Assembly: GCF_025263685.1 (NCBI RefSeq)
Contig: NZ_CP092109.1
Coordinates: forward strand, 3,287,001-3,351,000
Direction: 5' to 3'
DNA: 64,000 bases
DNA from: Geoalkalibacter halelectricus
GTDB lineage: Bacteria; Desulfobacterota; Desulfuromonadia; Desulfuromonadales; Geoalkalibacteraceae
Shown: piece after piece, positions 35,812 to 41,402 of the stretch
Layout: every line of letters starts with the position of its first letter
Numbering within the stretch: the stretch's first letter is position 1
Notes under the pieces: model-generated
What the model saw: the letters and a program-made list of their open reading frames with translations, nothing else
Told to the model about the DNA's origin: nothing
The model's database searches: none
Translations under genes and position numbers: made by a program

Positions 35812-36461
35812 GCGCGGTTCGCGGCGGCCGCTCTTGTCATCAACGGAAACAGCGAGGGCGCGGCCAGGCCCGCCCCCGCCCGGGGAGGGGGTGGAGGGGA
35901 TTGGTTGGTTAATCTATATGTTAACCACCCGCGCGGCGGGACCCCCGGCGGGGCCATTTGGCCCCGGGCGCCCCCCCCCAACCGCCCGGCCCCCCCCCCC
36001 CCCCCAACCCCCCGCCCCCCCCCGTATTTTTTTCCCTCCCCGGCGCGCCCCCCTCACCCCCCCCCCCCCCCCCCCCCCCCCCGGTTGCCGCGGCTGCTGG
36101 CGGCTACAGCGCCCAGGTTCAGGCCCCGGCAGGCAGACCAAACGATTCAGCCGCGGGGCGGTCGACATGGGCAAAAGATGCGACCAACATGAAACAATTC
36201 CGGCTGCGGGGGCTCCGCGACCGGGGGTGACACCGGGAGAACCGCGGCGGCACGGGTTGTTTTCCGTACCTGCCGAAAGAATCTCTCTCTGGGATGAAGT
36301 GCAACCCCTAACCGCCGCCGCCCTTAATTTTCCAGGTCGGCCAACACGCAAAACCACGAACAAGGGAGGTGATGCATAGCGCAGGGCTAGGATCGGTTGA
36401 TCGATGCTCAACCTGAAGTCGAAATCAGCGTTCACGAAATGACCAACCAAAGGGGGAAATT
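35812..36461 (+). other. Gene-free interval with C homopolymers (possible assembly defect) and a structured leader
   Basis: 650 bases without a supportable gene. 35860-36082 is extremely GC-rich with C runs, the longest about 24 bases ending at 36082, and a lone T7; this is unlike any neighbour and looks like low-quality sequence. From 36083 on, composition is normal. One frame there reads P-P-P-V-A-A-A-A-G-G-Y-S-A-Q-V and stops at 36230, which could be the broken tail of a Pro-rich gene, but no start or family can be seen. An inverted repeat at 36395-36413 lies before the next gene. Confidence 0.6.
36395..36413 (+). promoter_or_regulatory. Inverted repeat in the leader of the repeat-protein gene
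   Basis: GGTTGA and TCAACC flank a 7-base spacer, 48 bases before the start codon at 36462. It could be an operator or a leader hairpin. No good sigma-70 or sigma-54 promoter was found in the interval. Confidence 0.35.
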
Positions 36462-38162
36462 ATGTTCAAAAGCAAACTGCTCGCACTGACCACTATCTTT
36501 GCTTTCATCTTTGCCTTCAGTTGCCCGGTTTTGGCCGAGAATACCGCCACGGACAATAGCGACTCTCAAGTAGCCCAAGAGTCATCCTTTGCCATCAGCG
36601 TCAGCGATTCCCTCAACGACAACGATCTGAGCAATAATTCGGACAACAGCAACAATAGCGTCAATACAGCTGACTCTAACAACGACAACAGCGACAACAG
36701 CGTCAACACCGCAGACTCTAACAACGATGCAAGCAATAATGACAGCTTTAACACTTCCGACTCGAACAACGACAACAGCGCAAACACAGCTGATTCAAAC
36801 AACGACAACAGCAACAACAGTGTAAACACAGCTGACTCAAACAACGACCTTAGCAATAACAGCGTCAACACCGCAGACTCCAACAATGATGCGAGCACAA
36901 ATGACAGCTTAAACACCGCTGATTCAAACAACGATAACAGCGTCAACACGGCTGACTCGAACAATGACGCTAGCACAAACGACAGCTTCAACACCTCTGA
37001 TTCAAACAACGACAATAGCGTCAACACCGCTGATTCCAACAATGACGCGAGCACAAATGACAGCTTCAACACCGCTGATTCAAACAACGACAACAGTATC
37101 AACACGGCCGACTCCAACAACGACAATAGCGACAACAGCGTCAACACCGCAGACTCGAACAATGACGCGAGTACAAACGACAGTTTTAACACCGCGGACT
37201 CAAACAACGACAACAGCGTCAATACTGCTGATTCAAACAACGACAACAGCAACAACAGCGTTAACACTGCCGACTCCAACAACGACAACAGCGACAACAG
37301 CGTTAACACCGCAGACTCGAACAATGACGCGAGCACAAACGACAGCTTTAACACCGCGGACTCCAACAACGACAACAGTGTCAACACTGCCGACTCCAAC
37401 AACGACAACAGCGACAACAGCGACAATAGCGTCAACACCGCCGACTCCAACAACGACAACAGCGTCAATACTGCTGACTCCAACAATGACGCGAGCACAA
37501 ATGACAGCTTCAACACCGCGGACTCCAACAATGACAACAGTGTCAACACCGCCGACTCCAACAACGACAATAGTGTCAACACTTCCGATTCCAATAACGA
37601 CAACAGCGTCAACACGGCTGACTCCAACAATGACAACAGCAACAACAGCACAAACGATTCTTTGAACACTGCCGATTCCAACAACGACAACAGCGTCAAC
37701 ACGGCTGACTCCAACAACGACAACAGCGACAACAGCGACAATAGCGTCAACACCGCCGACTCCAACAACGACAACAGCGTCAACACAGCTGACTCCAACA
37801 ACGACAACAGCGACAACAGCGACAATAGCGTCAACACCGCCGACTCCAACAACGACAACAGCGTCAACACCGCAGATTCCAACAATGACAACAGCAACAA
37901 CAGCGTCAATGATTCCAACAACAACAACTCAGTCGTCGAAGCGGCCCTGAGCCAAGTTGCGGCCATGACTGACTCCGCCATGAATTTCACGGGTGCCGAG
38001 GGCGACCAATCCCTCAGCATCGTCAACAGCATCAATGTCAGCGACACCGCAAACGGCTTCGCCGGCATCAACAGCATGAACATGAGCAGCGGCTACTTCA
38101 ACAACGCCGCCAGCCAGACGGTCTTCGGCTTCACTCTCAGCGGAACCGGCAGCATTGAATAA
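36462..38162 (+). CDS. Secreted Asn/Asp/Ser repeat protein, candidate functional-amyloid subunit (FapC/FapB-like)
   Basis: 566 residues. Signal peptide 1-25 (ends P-V-L-A). Residues about 60-489 contain 31 copies of N-T-[AS]-D-S-N-N-D spaced by units of 11, 14, 15, 17 or 18 residues; spacers are made of N-S-V, N-S-D-N-S or A-S-T-N-D-S-F. No Cys or Trp in the mature protein and almost no basic residues. The last 77 residues are different and include G-I-x3-N-M-x-S-G-x2-N-x-A-A at 535-550, resembling the Gly/Asn/Gln repeat motif of Fap amyloid proteins as I remember them. AGGGGGAAATT precedes the ATG. Function as an extracellular fibre subunit is inferred from this motif and the C39 protease and barrel genes downstream; calcium-binding or ice-binding-like repeats are alternatives. 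Confidence 0.6.
   Translation: MFKSKLLALTTIFAFIFAFSCPVLAENTATDNSDSQVAQESSFAISVSDSLNDNDLSNNSDNSNNSVNTADSNNDNSDNSVNTADSNNDASNNDSFNTSDSNNDNSANTADSNNDNSNNSVNTADSNNDLSNNSVNTADSNNDASTNDSLNTADSNNDNSVNTADSNNDASTNDSFNTSDSNNDNSVNTADSNNDASTNDSFNTADSNNDNSINTADSNNDNSDNSVNTADSNNDASTNDSFNTADSNNDNSVNTADSNNDNSNNSVNTADSNNDNSDNSVNTADSNNDASTNDSFNTADSNNDNSVNTADSNNDNSDNSDNSVNTADSNNDNSVNTADSNNDASTNDSFNTADSNNDNSVNTADSNNDNSVNTSDSNNDNSVNTADSNNDNSNNSTNDSLNTADSNNDNSVNTADSNNDNSDNSDNSVNTADSNNDNSVNTADSNNDNSDNSDNSVNTADSNNDNSVNTADSNNDNSNNSVNDSNNNNSVVEAALSQVAAMTDSAMNFTGAEGDQSLSIVNSINVSDTANGFAGINSMNMSSGYFNNAASQTVFGFTLSGTGSIE
36600..37920 (+). repeat. In-frame tandem repeat array (31 units, 33 to 54 bp)
   Basis: Degenerate tandem repeats coding the N-T-[AS]-D-S-N-N-D units. 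Unit lengths are always multiples of three and differ mostly by insertion of one or two 9-base blocks like GACAACAGC. Silent third-position variation between copies (AAC/AAT, GAC/GAT, AGC/AGT) argues for an old array under protein-level selection rather than a recent expansion. Confidence 0.9.
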
Positions 38163-38187
38163 CACGCCAACAGCCCTATTTTTTAAT

Positions 38188-38216
38188 GCGCGAGGGGGAA
38201 TATTTCCCCCTCGCGC
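38188..38216 (+). terminator. 13-bp hairpin between repeat-protein gene and protease gene
   Basis: Perfect stem 38188-38200 with 38204-38216 and loop TAT, preceded by T6 at about 38179-38184 and not followed by a T run on the plus strand. It may act as a partial terminator or a 3'-end stabiliser that keeps the repeat protein above its export genes. Confidence 0.55.
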
Positions 38217-38250
38217 CTGACTTTACCAAAATTCATCAGGAACAAGCGGG

Positions 38251-38958
38251 ATGGGGCGAAAGACAGAAACAATCCTGGCTTTATTCATCGTTTTCATTTT
38301 GCTGGGTGGATGCGCCCCCCAGCCCGACGCTTGGAATGCGCCGGTTGAAATTCGCCTCGGCAACGCCACCGTCACGCGCCACGTTACGCCGCTGCGCGAC
38401 ATGAAATTCAAAAACATCGTGCGCCAGACCAAGGACTACAGCTGTGGCGCGGCCTCCCTGGCCACCATCATGACCTACTATTTCGACCTGCCGAGGAGCG
38501 AGATAGAAATCCTGGAAAGCCTGTTCCTCAACGCCGATCGGGCCACCATCAAGCGGATCAGGGAACGCGGCATTTCCCTGCTTGATTTGAAAAACTACGG
38601 GGAAGCGCAGGGCCTGGTCGGCCAAGGCTACCGCATGGAGCCCCACCAGCTCAAAACCTTGGATCGCCCGGCCATCGTCCTTGTGGATCTCAAGGGCTAC
38701 AGTCATTTCGTGGTGGTGCGCGGCGTGCAGGAGGGACGCATACATTTGGCCGACCCGGCGCGCGGACATTGGCACCGCAGCCTCGAGGAATTCGGCACCA
38801 TGTGGAACGGCATTCTGCTTGCCTTTAAGCGCGCCGATGGGCCCCGCATCACCGAGCACGAATTGGAAATTCGGCCCTTTTGGGCCCATGGCCCCATGGA
38901 TTTGCTGCCGCGCCTTATGCTCGATACGCAATTTGCCTACTCAGCTCAGGAATTTTGA
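38251..38958 (+). CDS. C39-type cysteine protease, lipoprotein (FapD-like)
   Basis: 235 residues. N-terminal lipobox L-G-G-C with Cys21. The papain-like C39 core shows the oxyanion Gln59, nucleophile Cys65 in D-Y-S-C-G-A-A-S, His152 in G-Y-S-H-F-V-V-V and Asp168 in A-D-P-A, so all catalytic residues are present. Unlike bacteriocin exporters there is no ABC transporter part; the lipoprotein form should act in the periplasm. FapD of the Pseudomonas Fap operon is likewise a lone C39 peptidase. Likely substrate is the next gene product, which has a Gly-Gly motif. Cotranscription with 38989-39531 is likely (30-base gap). Confidence 0.82.
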   Translation: MGRKTETILALFIVFILLGGCAPQPDAWNAPVEIRLGNATVTRHVTPLRDMKFKNIVRQTKDYSCGAASLATIMTYYFDLPRSEIEILESLFLNADRATIKRIRERGISLLDLKNYGEAQGLVGQGYRMEPHQLKTLDRPAIVLVDLKGYSHFVVVRGVQEGRIHLADPARGHWHRSLEEFGTMWNGILLAFKRADGPRITEHELEIRPFWAHGPMDLLPRLMLDTQFAYSAQEF

Positions 38959-38988
38959 TTGCCTGTTCGCGAAAGGGGTGAAACAAGT

Positions 38989-39531
38989 ATGAACAGTTGG
39001 CCGGGCATAAAGTTCTGCATCCTTGCCGCCCTGGTTTTTCTGGCCCTGGCCAGACCCGCCGCAGCCGTCGATGCGCTCAACCTTGGCGGTGAGCCCTTGA
39101 GCGAGGCGGAAATGGCCGAAGCTCAAGGGGGATTCACCCTGCCCAATGGGGATTTTCTTTATTTCTCCATGGATTTCATGCGGGTCAACCTGGTATCGCA
39201 CCAGCAACCCGGCGGCGCCGACATCAACGGGTTCGTCAACTCGTTACGCCAGGAAGCCGTCATCGGCAAGGACGGCAGCATTCAGGTCAATGTTGACATT
39301 CTTCAGGCGGGCCAAGGTGACGGCATCGGCCAAAACGGCGGTACCCCCCAACAAATCAATGCGGTGCTGCTCAACAATTCTTTTACCAACTTTCAGGGCC
39401 TGGCCAACGCCAACCTCATCACCGGCAACCACAACGTCGGCTCGATCATCAATGTCATCAATCTGCGGCTCGGTTTTTTCAGCAAGGAGAATTTCAGCGC
39501 TCCGGATTTGCGCGACTTCTTCATGCACTGA
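38989..39531 (+). CDS. Secreted protein with Gly-Gly processing-like motif, candidate Fap-system partner
   Basis: 180 residues, ATG after GAAAGGGGTGAAA. Signal peptide 1-26 (A-R-P-A-A-A). Residues 35-48 read E-P-L-S-E-A-E-M-A-E-A-Q-G-G, the pattern of double-glycine leader peptides cut by C39 proteases (acidic residues, hydrophobic at -4 and -7 side, G-G). The following chain is beta-rich and Asn-rich; residues 137-152 fit G-L-x3-N-L-x-T-G-x2-N-x-G-S, aligned without gaps to the C-terminal motif of the repeat protein. Possible minor fibre subunit or nucleator (FapB/FapE-like role). No family could be named with certainty. Confidence 0.65.
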   Translation: MNSWPGIKFCILAALVFLALARPAAAVDALNLGGEPLSEAEMAEAQGGFTLPNGDFLYFSMDFMRVNLVSHQQPGGADINGFVNSLRQEAVIGKDGSIQVNVDILQAGQGDGIGQNGGTPQQINAVLLNNSFTNFQGLANANLITGNHNVGSIINVINLRLGFFSKENFSAPDLRDFFMH

Positions 39532-39560
39532 GAGAATCGGGAATCTCATTATGGTCCCAG

Positions 39561-39591
39561 GGTCACGGCAACGAGGGGCCGTGGCCTTTTT
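39561..39591 (+). terminator. Terminator after the 180-residue protein gene
   Basis: 9-bp GC stem (39561-39569 with 39578-39586, one G-T pair) followed by T5. It ends the upstream unit and suggests the barrel gene has its own promoter. Confidence 0.75.
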
Positions 39592-39656
39592 ATCGCCACC
39601 CTGGGGCCTAATAAGAAAAATTGCAAAATGGTCCTGCGCAAGTGCAATCCATCGAC

Positions 39657-39662
39657 TATACT
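39657..39662 (+). promoter_or_regulatory. Possible -10 element before the barrel gene
   Basis: TATACT at 39657, about 70 bases before the ATG at 39735; the -35 region (TGCGCA, 16 bases upstream) is poor. Confidence 0.3.
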
Positions 39663-39734
39663 TGGCCCCGAAGCGGTTCGCTGTCCGGGTCAAACTGCTA
39701 TTTGCTTCTTAATCCGTTAGATCGGGGAGGGCAT

Positions 39735-40721
39735 ATGCGTTTCGTGGTCGGGCTTTTGTTTTTGCTGGTTATATTGCAATCGGCGTTTAATTCTTCTTTT
39801 GCTCTGGCGGAGACAAGCGGCGCGGAGACCAGCCTGATCGCCGATACCGGGGGATCCTGGGCGGGAAAGCGCAGCCTGATCATCGAACCCGGATTTCAAT
39901 ACACGCACAACTCCTCAAACCGCATCGATCTGACCGGCCTCACCCTGCCCGGATTGGTCATCGGGTTGATTCAGGTGGAAAAAGTGCGACGCGACATCCT
40001 CACTCCCTCCGTCTCCCTGCGGTTCGGGGTCAGCGAATTTTTCCAGATCAATCTGAAGGTTCCCTACCTCTACCGTTCGGACAAGTTCACCAACCGCCCC
40101 GGGGAGCCGCAAATTCCCAGTCAGCATAATACGGTCAACGATCATGCGTTGGGTGATATCGAAGGCGGCATCCTGTTCCACCTGCTCAAGGAAACCCCCT
40201 CGCGGCCGCAGGTTATCGCCGGACTCAAAGCCAAATCCCGCACAGGTCGCGATCCCTACGGCCTGGCCAGACAGATGGCGACCCCCGGCACCCAGATCCC
40301 CGCCGAGTTGCCGACGGGCACGGGCCACTGGGCACTGGAACCCTATGTGACGGTACTCAAAGTGGCTGACCCGGCGGTGCTGTTCGCCAACCTCGGCTAT
40401 TTCTATCACATGGAGCGGACTATCGACGGGATCGGCAAAGTCGATCCCAGCGACAGCGTCAACCTGAGCTTCGGCATCGGCTACGCACTCAACGACAAGT
40501 TGGCCCTGAGCACCGCCTTCGAACAGAAGATCTACACGCGCGCCAAAGTCGACGGAAGAAAGCTCGCGGAAACCGATCCGGTGGTCGCCACCCTTCTGCT
40601 GGGAGCCACGTACGCCTTTTCTCCACGCACCGCCATGAACCTAACCTTGGGGGTCGGCCTGACCGAGGATTCCCCGGACATGCAGGTCAGCATCAACTTC
40701 CCGATCCGCTTCAGCTTTTAG
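39735..40721 (+). CDS. Outer-membrane beta-barrel protein (phenol-degradation MetA-like / FapF-like)
   Basis: 328 residues. Signal peptide about 1-26 (F-A-L-A-E). The rest alternates hydrophobic and polar residues typical of beta strands (R-S-L-I-I-E-P-G-F-Q-Y, S-V-S-L-R-F-G-V, L-S-F-G-I-G-Y-A-L) and ends I-R-F-S-F, the C-terminal aromatic signal for barrel insertion. The style fits the family long labelled 'MetA-pathway of phenol degradation', to which I recall FapF has been assigned. No N-terminal coiled coil like that of FapF is seen. With the three genes before it, a pore for exporting fibre subunits is a reasonable reading. Confidence 0.7.
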   Translation: MRFVVGLLFLLVILQSAFNSSFALAETSGAETSLIADTGGSWAGKRSLIIEPGFQYTHNSSNRIDLTGLTLPGLVIGLIQVEKVRRDILTPSVSLRFGVSEFFQINLKVPYLYRSDKFTNRPGEPQIPSQHNTVNDHALGDIEGGILFHLLKETPSRPQVIAGLKAKSRTGRDPYGLARQMATPGTQIPAELPTGTGHWALEPYVTVLKVADPAVLFANLGYFYHMERTIDGIGKVDPSDSVNLSFGIGYALNDKLALSTAFEQKIYTRAKVDGRKLAETDPVVATLLLGATYAFSPRTAMNLTLGVGLTEDSPDMQVSINFPIRFSF

Positions 40722-40808: not shown

Positions 40809-41402
40809 ATGGCTTCACATCCTGACATCCGCGAAGTTGCCTGCCAGCAGGTTCTGCTGGATGACTCATCGGTATTTTCCGTGCAATGGCTGGTGCTACC
40901 GCGTGATCTGGCCGCCGAGGTGACGCCGGAGTTTCTTCTGGAGCGCTACCTGAGCTATCTGCGGCGCTTTACCGCTTCCCTGGTGCGTCCGCAACGCGAA
41001 ACTGAGCGACTGGGGTTTCGGCTGCTCGGCACGCGTCGCAACCTCATCGAATTCAACGCCCCCGAATTCGTCGCGGACGGCGGCCGCCGCTCGGTGATCC
41101 TGACCATTCGCGGCGGTTTTCTGGTCCAGCCCGATCGCTGCGACCGCGGCCGGCTGGAATTCACCACAGAGGAAACGACCGAGGGACTGCGGGTGAGCCT
41201 GCAACTCTCAGACTATTGTCCGCTGCTGCTGGGCAGTGCCAAACCCTCCTGGGTGCGCCGCCGGCTCTACCGCCTCACTCAAGCCGCCATCCACAAAGTC
41301 GTGACGGTACGCTTCCTGCTTGTTTTGTATCGTGAACTGGCCGGACCCCAAGCTTGCGTCAAGGTTGTGCCGGCGCAGGTGCGCAAAGGGCGTCCAACCT
41401 GA
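40809..41402 (+). CDS. Protein of unknown family
   Basis: 197 residues, start ATG at 40809 with GGAGAA upstream. No signal peptide. Mixed alpha/beta composition with basic C-terminus; recognisable stretches are V-I-L-T-I-R-G-G-F-L-V-Q-P in the middle and R-R-L-Y-R-L-T-Q-A-A-I-H-K-V-V-T near the end. I do not recognise the family. It sits between the barrel gene and a metallophosphatase on the same strand, 35 bases before the latter. Confidence 0.75.
   Translation: MASHPDIREVACQQVLLDDSSVFSVQWLVLPRDLAAEVTPEFLLERYLSYLRRFTASLVRPQRETERLGFRLLGTRRNLIEFNAPEFVADGGRRSVILTIRGGFLVQPDRCDRGRLEFTTEETTEGLRVSLQLSDYCPLLLGSAKPSWVRRRLYRLTQAAIHKVVTVRFLLVLYRELAGPQACVKVVPAQVRKGRPT

Follow-up and report, generated by a model that had tools for sequence, protein, structure and literature searches.

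Four consecutive genes on one strand of the Geoalkalibacter halelectricus genome make up, judging from profile matches, gene order and phylogeny, a genuine, divergent relative of the Fap functional-amyloid locus of Pseudomonas and not a textbook fap operon. They lie in a stretch of 64,000 nucleotides (contig NZ_CP092109.1, positions 3,287,001 to 3,351,000; hereafter, the window). We consider it probable that they encode an export system (fapCDEF) for a surface fibre whose core is reduced, which would involve cleavage of a leader on the FapE-like protein and a brush of acidic repeats around the fibre. Of more use than the locus itself, however, may be the FapD cleavage site that it allows us to predict.

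A divergent Fap-type locus

The genes, and the elements within them that matter most for the argument, are as follows.

36462 to 38162, + strand: fapC-like gene for a 566-amino-acid secreted subunit, with a Sec signal, a short conserved N-terminal module, an Asn/Asp/Ser/Thr/Ala array and a C-terminal Fap repeat
36606 to 37925, + strand: repeat array of the subunit (residues 49-488, about 440 residues), with 31 copies of NT[AS]DSNND at a main spacing of 11 residues
38037 to 38135, + strand: single Fap imperfect repeat of the subunit (residues 526-558, DTANGFAGINSMNMSSGYFNNAASQTVFGFTLS region), from HHalign comparison with 67 canonical FapB/C repeats and shuffled controls
38251 to 38958, + strand: fapD-like gene for a periplasmic C39 cysteine protease of 235 amino acids, from NF058616 and PF03412 matches, alignment and tree
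38989 to 39531, + strand: fapE-like gene for a 180-amino-acid secreted protein and predicted FapD substrate, from its position after fapD and a profile match to Pseudomonas FapE
39097 to 39132, + strand: C39-type leader element LSEAEMAEAQGG (residues 37-48), with a predicted cut after G48, from leader counts and profile comparison
39735 to 40721, + strand: fapF-like gene for an outer-membrane barrel of 328 amino acids, from NF058560 and PDB 5o67/5o65/5o68

The FapE-like protein is counted from an ATG, and a longer open reading frame (ORF) would begin at TTG 38959. Likewise, the barrel is counted from the ATG that yields a signal peptide, and its longest ORF would begin at TTG 39621. All four ORFs lie at the place and on the strand given in a first-pass annotation of the window, and all four products carry Sec-type signal sequences. 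Their order, C-D-E-F, is that of the canonical fapABCDEF operon with fapA and fapB left out.

The protease matches the NCBIfam FapD model NF058616 (E=3.1e-40, 137.8 bits; cut-off 330) and the Pfam C39 family PF03412 (E=6.5e-22). It had been annotated as a lipoprotein C39 protease with complete catalytic residues. These residues (Q59, C65, H152 and D168) are indeed invariant in an alignment of 10 homologues, whereas nothing comparable to its lipobox-like LLGGC is evident in the nine homologues aligned, and thus lipoprotein status is not a conserved property. The barrel, which ends in RFSF as had been described, matches the NCBIfam FapF model NF058560 (E=1.6e-52, 178.8 bits; cut-off 700) and, by phmmer, solved FapF chains (PDB 5o67/5o65/5o68; E=1.2e-39). 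The FapF match covers model positions 113-420 only and begins at residue 38 of the protein, with no N-terminal extension, so that the periplasmic coiled coil known from Pseudomonas FapF has no counterpart here. Because both scores fall well below the NCBIfam equivalog cut-offs, we regard the two proteins as divergent homologues. Run as a positive control, a Pseudomonas operon (L095) yields proteins that exceed the cut-offs for FapB, FapC, FapD, FapE and FapF.

The proposal that these genes form a Fap-like set of parts has therefore held up well, with matches to the FapD and FapF profiles and to solved FapF and, as described below, conserved linkage; the profile matches and linkage whose absence would have spoken against it are clearly present. 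A hidden Markov model (HMM) comparison suggested at the same time identified the protease as FapD and the barrel as FapF, and the 180-residue protein gave no direct match to the NCBIfam FapE model.

Distribution and FapD phylogeny

A scan of genome contigs with the window protease as a single sequence gave no match and was replaced by an alignment-based scan. Among 58 relatives searched, the barrel is present in each of the three other genomes of the genus, in two genomes of the order (G024 and G009) and, as a fragment at a contig end, in G049. The congeners G003 and G001 have the four genes linked (in G002, the protease is cut by a contig end), and all four are present in G024, which belongs to another family of the order. 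With two Nitrospirota metagenome-assembled genomes (MAGs; L072 and L073), the closest relatives outside the order, this establishes linkage in the same genus, another family and another phylum. A class-wide search with the FapD model found matches in 29 of 277 genomes, some of the weak ones being parts of larger ABC exporters. Most loci fetched around the stand-alone FapD proteins of this search have FapF nearby. In a set of 80 loci from named genomes, FapF is found in 72.

In a maximum-likelihood tree of 50 FapD sequences, rooted at the midpoint, the window protein groups in one clade with those of G001, G003, G024 and the two Nitrospirota (100/99). This clade sits within an 18-sequence group (96/89) otherwise made up of three-repeat Fap loci from Pseudomonas, other proteobacteria, G009 of the same order, and the Desulfobacterota L085 and L103. 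The group takes in all Desulfobacterota and Pseudomonadota three-repeat loci sampled; L085 is a partial contig on which two repeats are visible. A second clade holds the other 32 sequences (Geobacterales, Caulobacterales, Massilia and others). Many of its loci have N/D/S-rich proteins plus a small one-repeat protein, and a four-repeat protein occurs in at least one, Asaia L150. The simplest reading is perhaps that repeats were lost on the window's branch, within the first group, although the direction of change is tentative because the root is a midpoint.

A predicted FapD cleavage site in FapE

By its position and its N-terminal leader segment, the 180-residue protein appears to correspond to FapE. 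Behind the Sec signal of this protein, which directly follows FapD, lies the element LSEAEMAEAQGG, with F at +1; the Pseudomonas counterpart is LKDQELANLRGR followed by Y. The window element has an aliphatic residue at -12, E/D at -8, L/M at -7 and Gly at both -2 and -1. This is the register of classical double-glycine leaders.

A pattern of this kind (aliphatic at -12, acidic or polar at -8, aliphatic at -7, Gly at -2, Gly/Arg/Lys at -1 and F/Y/L/M at +1) is present in 78 of 80 FapD-adjacent proteins (33 GG, 44 GR and 1 GK), against 1.3% of within-sequence shuffles; many of these loci, all from named genomes, are from Pseudomonas and thus not independent. The two misses are L089, which has a miscalled start, and L099, in which only the -12 position of VDTAILEGARGGF departs from the pattern. 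A longer-form regular expression was not strict enough towards hydrophobic membrane proteins, with matches in 10 of 195 background secreted-like ORFs, and we therefore relied on the shuffle test and on a stricter form (R at -3, F/Y/L at +1), which is found in 60 of the 80 loci and in none of the 195 background ORFs. Carriers of the element include Alpha-, Beta- and Gammaproteobacteria, Desulfobacterota, Nitrospirota and one Verrucomicrobia MAG. Elements of a similar kind, ending in GR or GG, are also found on other secreted proteins encoded at Geobacterales loci, where a GG protein after FapD and a GR protein before it accompany a single FapD.

An HMM of Pseudomonas FapE alone misses the window protein (E=0.29), and profile-profile comparison was therefore needed. 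A profile of the window's FapE clade matches the Pseudomonas, Geobacterales and alphaproteobacterial sets with P=4.3e-6, 1.3e-7 and 9.4e-10 (reversed controls, 0.18-0.42). The alignment with Pseudomonas FapE spans residues 8-59 (reversed control, 0.42), and the Nitrospirota homologue matches the NCBIfam FapE model directly over residues 11-60 (3e-4). The likeness to FapE is confined to the N-terminal third of the protein.

FapC secretion depends on the active-site Cys of FapD, and in mass spectrometry FapE was the only Fap protein that lacked N-terminal peptides (Rouse 2017, PMC5557850). The same study called the FapD target unclear and described the Fap proteins as having no canonical C39 site, a 2018 review still called the substrate undetermined (PMC6173800), and a review of December 2025 goes no further than naming FapE and FapF as presumed targets of FapD processing (PMC12822426). 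A literature search that did not reach subscription papers found no later paper naming a FapE leader. The leader becomes recognisable in divergent loci that keep Gly-Gly in place of the Gly-Arg of Pseudomonas, and these yield a prediction at one-residue resolution that is applicable to Pseudomonas itself.

One Fap repeat and an acidic array

Where the Pseudomonas system has two subunits, FapB and FapC, each with three imperfect repeats, the locus has one subunit gene with one detectable repeat, and a search of the genome found no second copy of the subunit family. The first-pass annotation had seen only a single C-terminal Fap-like motif, and profile comparison agrees. A C-terminal-domain profile built from the window, two congeners, G024 and the Nitrospirota matches canonical repeats with a score of 37.2 (probability 94.7%), whereas the maximum among 200 column shuffles is 18.0 (0/200 reach the score). 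Without the Nitrospirota the probability is 85.0%, and with the genus alone it is 61.2% (score 23.6), a score reached by 0/150 column-shuffled controls. Single-sequence HMM evidence for the repeat is weak (E=0.03 for the protein), and 0/600 decoys do as well. HHalign with shuffled controls was used because an iterated repeat HMM drifted towards Pseudomonas and no longer detected the window repeat. This repeat is also the best conserved part of the subunit. In the same survey, 42 Pseudomonas-type loci have exactly 3+3 repeats. Published screens found three repeats to be nearly universal; because they required a FapB/C-repeat match, the window's branch would largely escape them, and it shows that repeat number can differ.

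The array had been described as nearly all N-T-[AS]-D-S-N-N-D repeats, and its 31 copies and its autocorrelation at lag 11 (0.47, against 0.219 with a standard deviation of 0.018 in shuffles) bear this out. Residues 49-488 include 84 acidic residues and no Lys, Arg, Gly, Pro, Gln or Cys. The whole mature protein, 541 residues long, is without Lys or Arg and would be nearly invisible to tryptic proteomics. The 31 octapeptide copies are written in 26 different DNA sequences. Codons flanking the anchor have identities of 0.89, 0.88 and 0.53 at positions 1, 2 and 3, and the ratio of nonsynonymous to synonymous differences per site (pN/pS) is 0.14, an estimate that covers neighbouring codons because the units were anchored on SNND, and for which synonymous sites are near saturation. 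The copies are therefore not recent DNA duplications, and the repeat peptide is maintained by selection. The same observations rule out a chance low-complexity ORF.

AlphaFold2, given a six-sequence alignment, predicts the array to be disordered and without strands. Its models of the repeat and FapE-like proteins were too poor for fold searches, and structure prediction appears neither to support nor to contradict the model outlined below beyond the disorder of the array. Array sequence shifts fast between species (e.g., QEGFNTDSS units in L009). Two 134-residue proteins of the Nitrospirota locus L072 have no array but share the window subunit's N-terminal module (NTATNNDGSAVAQ...DSLNDN) and its Fap repeat at the C-terminus. 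The window subunit looks like such a module with a greatly expanded linker, and its array may thus be the expanded linker of a one-repeat FapC-type protein.

A 431-residue secreted protein with 74% N/D/S/T is encoded beside FapD in Asticcacaulis solisilvae (L077 5247-6542). Its composition is strikingly like that of the window array, yet it belongs with the other FapD clade, and homology and convergence are both possible.

Proposed working and rival explanations

In the working that we favor, all four products would cross the inner membrane by Sec. The periplasmic FapD-like protease would then recognise the leader of the FapE-like protein and cut after Gly-Gly, and this cleavage would license secretion through the FapF-like barrel. 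The repeat protein would exit unfolded via the barrel, and the single C-terminal repeats of many copies would stack into a cross-beta core with one layer per subunit instead of three, around which the polyanionic Asn/Asp/Ser arrays would form a disordered brush. The sequences themselves show the homology of FapD and FapF, the synteny, one detectable Fap repeat, the conserved leader element and the selection on the repeat peptide; cleavage, secretion, the amyloid fibre and its brush are inferred.

Several points weigh against this working. FapD and FapF both score far under the equivalog cut-offs, and the repeat and FapE-like proteins have no direct match in NCBIfam or Pfam, nor in PHROGs. FapE homology is not detected beyond the first 60 residues. 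AlphaFold2 gives no confident fold for either protein (predicted local distance difference test scores of 35.6 for the repeat protein and 45.2 for the FapE-like protein). To our knowledge, an Arg closing the leader, as in Pseudomonas, is unusual for proteases of the C39 family. Furthermore, one repeat per subunit may be too little core for a stable fibre, and the FapF coiled coil, absent here, is needed for FapC secretion in Pseudomonas (PMC5557850).

Some of these features would suit a Fap machine re-used for a non-amyloid polyanionic coat or stalk, in which the repeat protein serves, whether anchored or released, as a disordered acidic polymer, perhaps for ion binding, spacing or anti-adhesion, and the C-terminal segment is only an export or docking signal. 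An acidic array without basic residues, selected as a peptide, predicted to be disordered and changing fast between species, fits such a role, as do the missing coiled coil and a lone Fap repeat that is only weakly detectable from the genus. Nevertheless, we find this the less plausible account, although one to be taken seriously, because that repeat is the best conserved part of the subunit, the FapD clade is shared with genuine three-repeat fibre loci, and the linkers of Pseudomonas FapC are also strongly variable (PMC3792158). Quite improbable, in our judgment, is a fibre core formed by the Asn-rich repeats themselves, as an 11-residue beta-solenoid or an Asn ladder capped or nucleated by the C-terminal repeat. 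The period of 11, the 88 N-x10-N pairs (against 53 expected by composition), the most frequent spacing of V/L/I/F/M (11 residues) and the strong selection on the peptide are all consistent with it, and the pattern follows the Q/N-x10-Q/N rule that has been cited for both curli and Fap (PMC6173800). However, the array has only 34 V/L/I/F/M in 440 residues and its 84 acids are uncompensated, its unit lengths vary (11, 14, 15 and 17), and AlphaFold2 shows no strands in it.

A different doubt concerns the leader, which might instead stay on the mature protein and serve to dock or target it to FapF or FapD. C39 proteases normally need Gly, Ala or Ser at -1, and 45 of the 78 loci have Arg or Lys there; a F/Y-x-x-x-G stretch after the element is conserved as well. 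This seems unlikely to us given the exact double-glycine register (-12, -8, -7, -2, -1), the constant presence of a C39 protease with full catalytic residues beside it, and the Geobacterales loci in which GG and GR proteins share one FapD. The loss of the N-terminus from Pseudomonas FapE alone, and the requirement for FapD activity, likewise favor cleavage (PMC5557850).

We are evenly divided on whether the proposed working extends further, such that Desulfuromonadia and Nitrospirota make one-layer-per-subunit fibres with a selected polyanionic brush and FapD cuts FapE after L-x3-E-[LM]-x4-G-[GR] in all Fap systems. If so, Fap would not be fixed at three repeats. Moreover, FapD would be a periplasmic double-glycine peptidase, in which bacteriocin-type leader processing has been moved to the periplasm and licenses outer-membrane secretion.

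Comparison with known systems

The window locus shares with Pseudomonas Fap the order C-D-E-F, FapD and FapF homology over nearly the full shared domains, a leader-bearing FapE-like protein after FapD, and a Fap repeat in the major subunit. It differs in lacking fapA and fapB, in having one repeat rather than three plus three, and in its long acidic array, its FapF without a coiled coil, a FapE-like protein similar only in the first third, and scores under the equivalog cut-offs. Absence of fapA is common in known fap operons (PMC3792158). Cryo-electron microscopy indicates that FapC forms one cross-beta layer per repeat (PMC12392863).

The second-clade FapD-FapF loci likewise combine an N/D/S/T-rich secreted protein, a C39 protease, FapF, a leader-bearing FapE-like protein, a small leader-bearing one-repeat protein and often a sigma-54 activator. 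In contrast, they have a separate FapD, and a FapF that is usually divergent in orientation and has a long N-terminal region. Co-localisation of FapD and FapF outside the classical Fap groups has already been reported (PMC6173800). The FapF-like protein of L013 (G009) has N-terminal DxDxDGIxDxxDxCP repeats where Pseudomonas FapF has its coiled coil, and these resemble thrombospondin type 3 calcium-binding repeats.

Other systems were ruled out. The putative FilB/FilC pilus system (Acinetobacter type, NF050078/NF050079) has a C39 protease and a barrel of the same superfamilies, but its models score lower than those for Fap (102 versus 138 bits for the protease and 57 versus 179 bits for the barrel); a literature search on FilA/FilB/FilC found nothing relevant. 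The PCAT/NHLM peptidase-containing ABC exporters share the C39 fold and the leader register, whereas the window protease is a stand-alone secreted protein of the periplasm whose predicted substrate arrives via Sec, with no ABC transporter in the locus. Curli resembles the proposed system by analogy, as an exported fibre; there is no csg gene in the locus, and the barrel and protease are unrelated to CsgG/CsgE/CsgF.

Upstream region and regulation

In G003 and G001, the operon contiguously follows a sigma-54 activator gene (Sigma54_activat 2.3e-69, HTH_8; its N-terminus is PilZ-like only at E=0.014, below the cut-off) and a perfect -24/-12 site. In the genome of the window, the activator (77% identical) and the site TGGCACAGGCGTTGC lie at 3.065 Mb on the other strand, 258 kb from the operon. 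A long poly-G tract (G000:C1 about 3064900-3065052, L071) follows the activator and promoter, and poly-C precedes the operon. Because homopolymer tracts stand at both broken ends, the two junctions suggest a misassembly, with a real inversion as a possible alternative. Two upstream features and, in relatives, the LWDE protein are located as follows.

35966 to 36083, no strand: poly-C junction at which the operon is cut off from its expected promoter and activator, from comparison with congeners
36167 to 36379, + strand: possible, weak remnant of a small upstream LWDE protein, reading ERISLWDE and without signal peptide or leader
LWDE protein in relatives: L012 4405-4800, L013 3239-3616, L057 4551-4973, L058 4814-5179, L062 5676-5996 (oriented), L072 5630-5986

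In these relatives, the LWDE protein is a small secreted protein with a C39-like leader and an [IV]-[IK]-LWDE motif, encoded upstream of the subunit gene; in the window's genus it has lost its signal peptide and leader. On the other side of the operon, a conserved 197-amino-acid protein (40809-41402) with no Pfam or NCBIfam match adjoins the barrel in the genus.

A gene beginning M[PS]R.D.R.KT, which encodes a sigma-54 activator with a PilZ-like N-terminus (profiled for L009 only), lies upstream of Fap-like genes in several loci (L009, L011, L012, L013, L047-L050, L053, L057, L058 and L062). A TGGCAC-N5-TTGC site often precedes the first secreted-protein gene in these loci, which suggests sigma-54 control and perhaps control by cyclic di-GMP.

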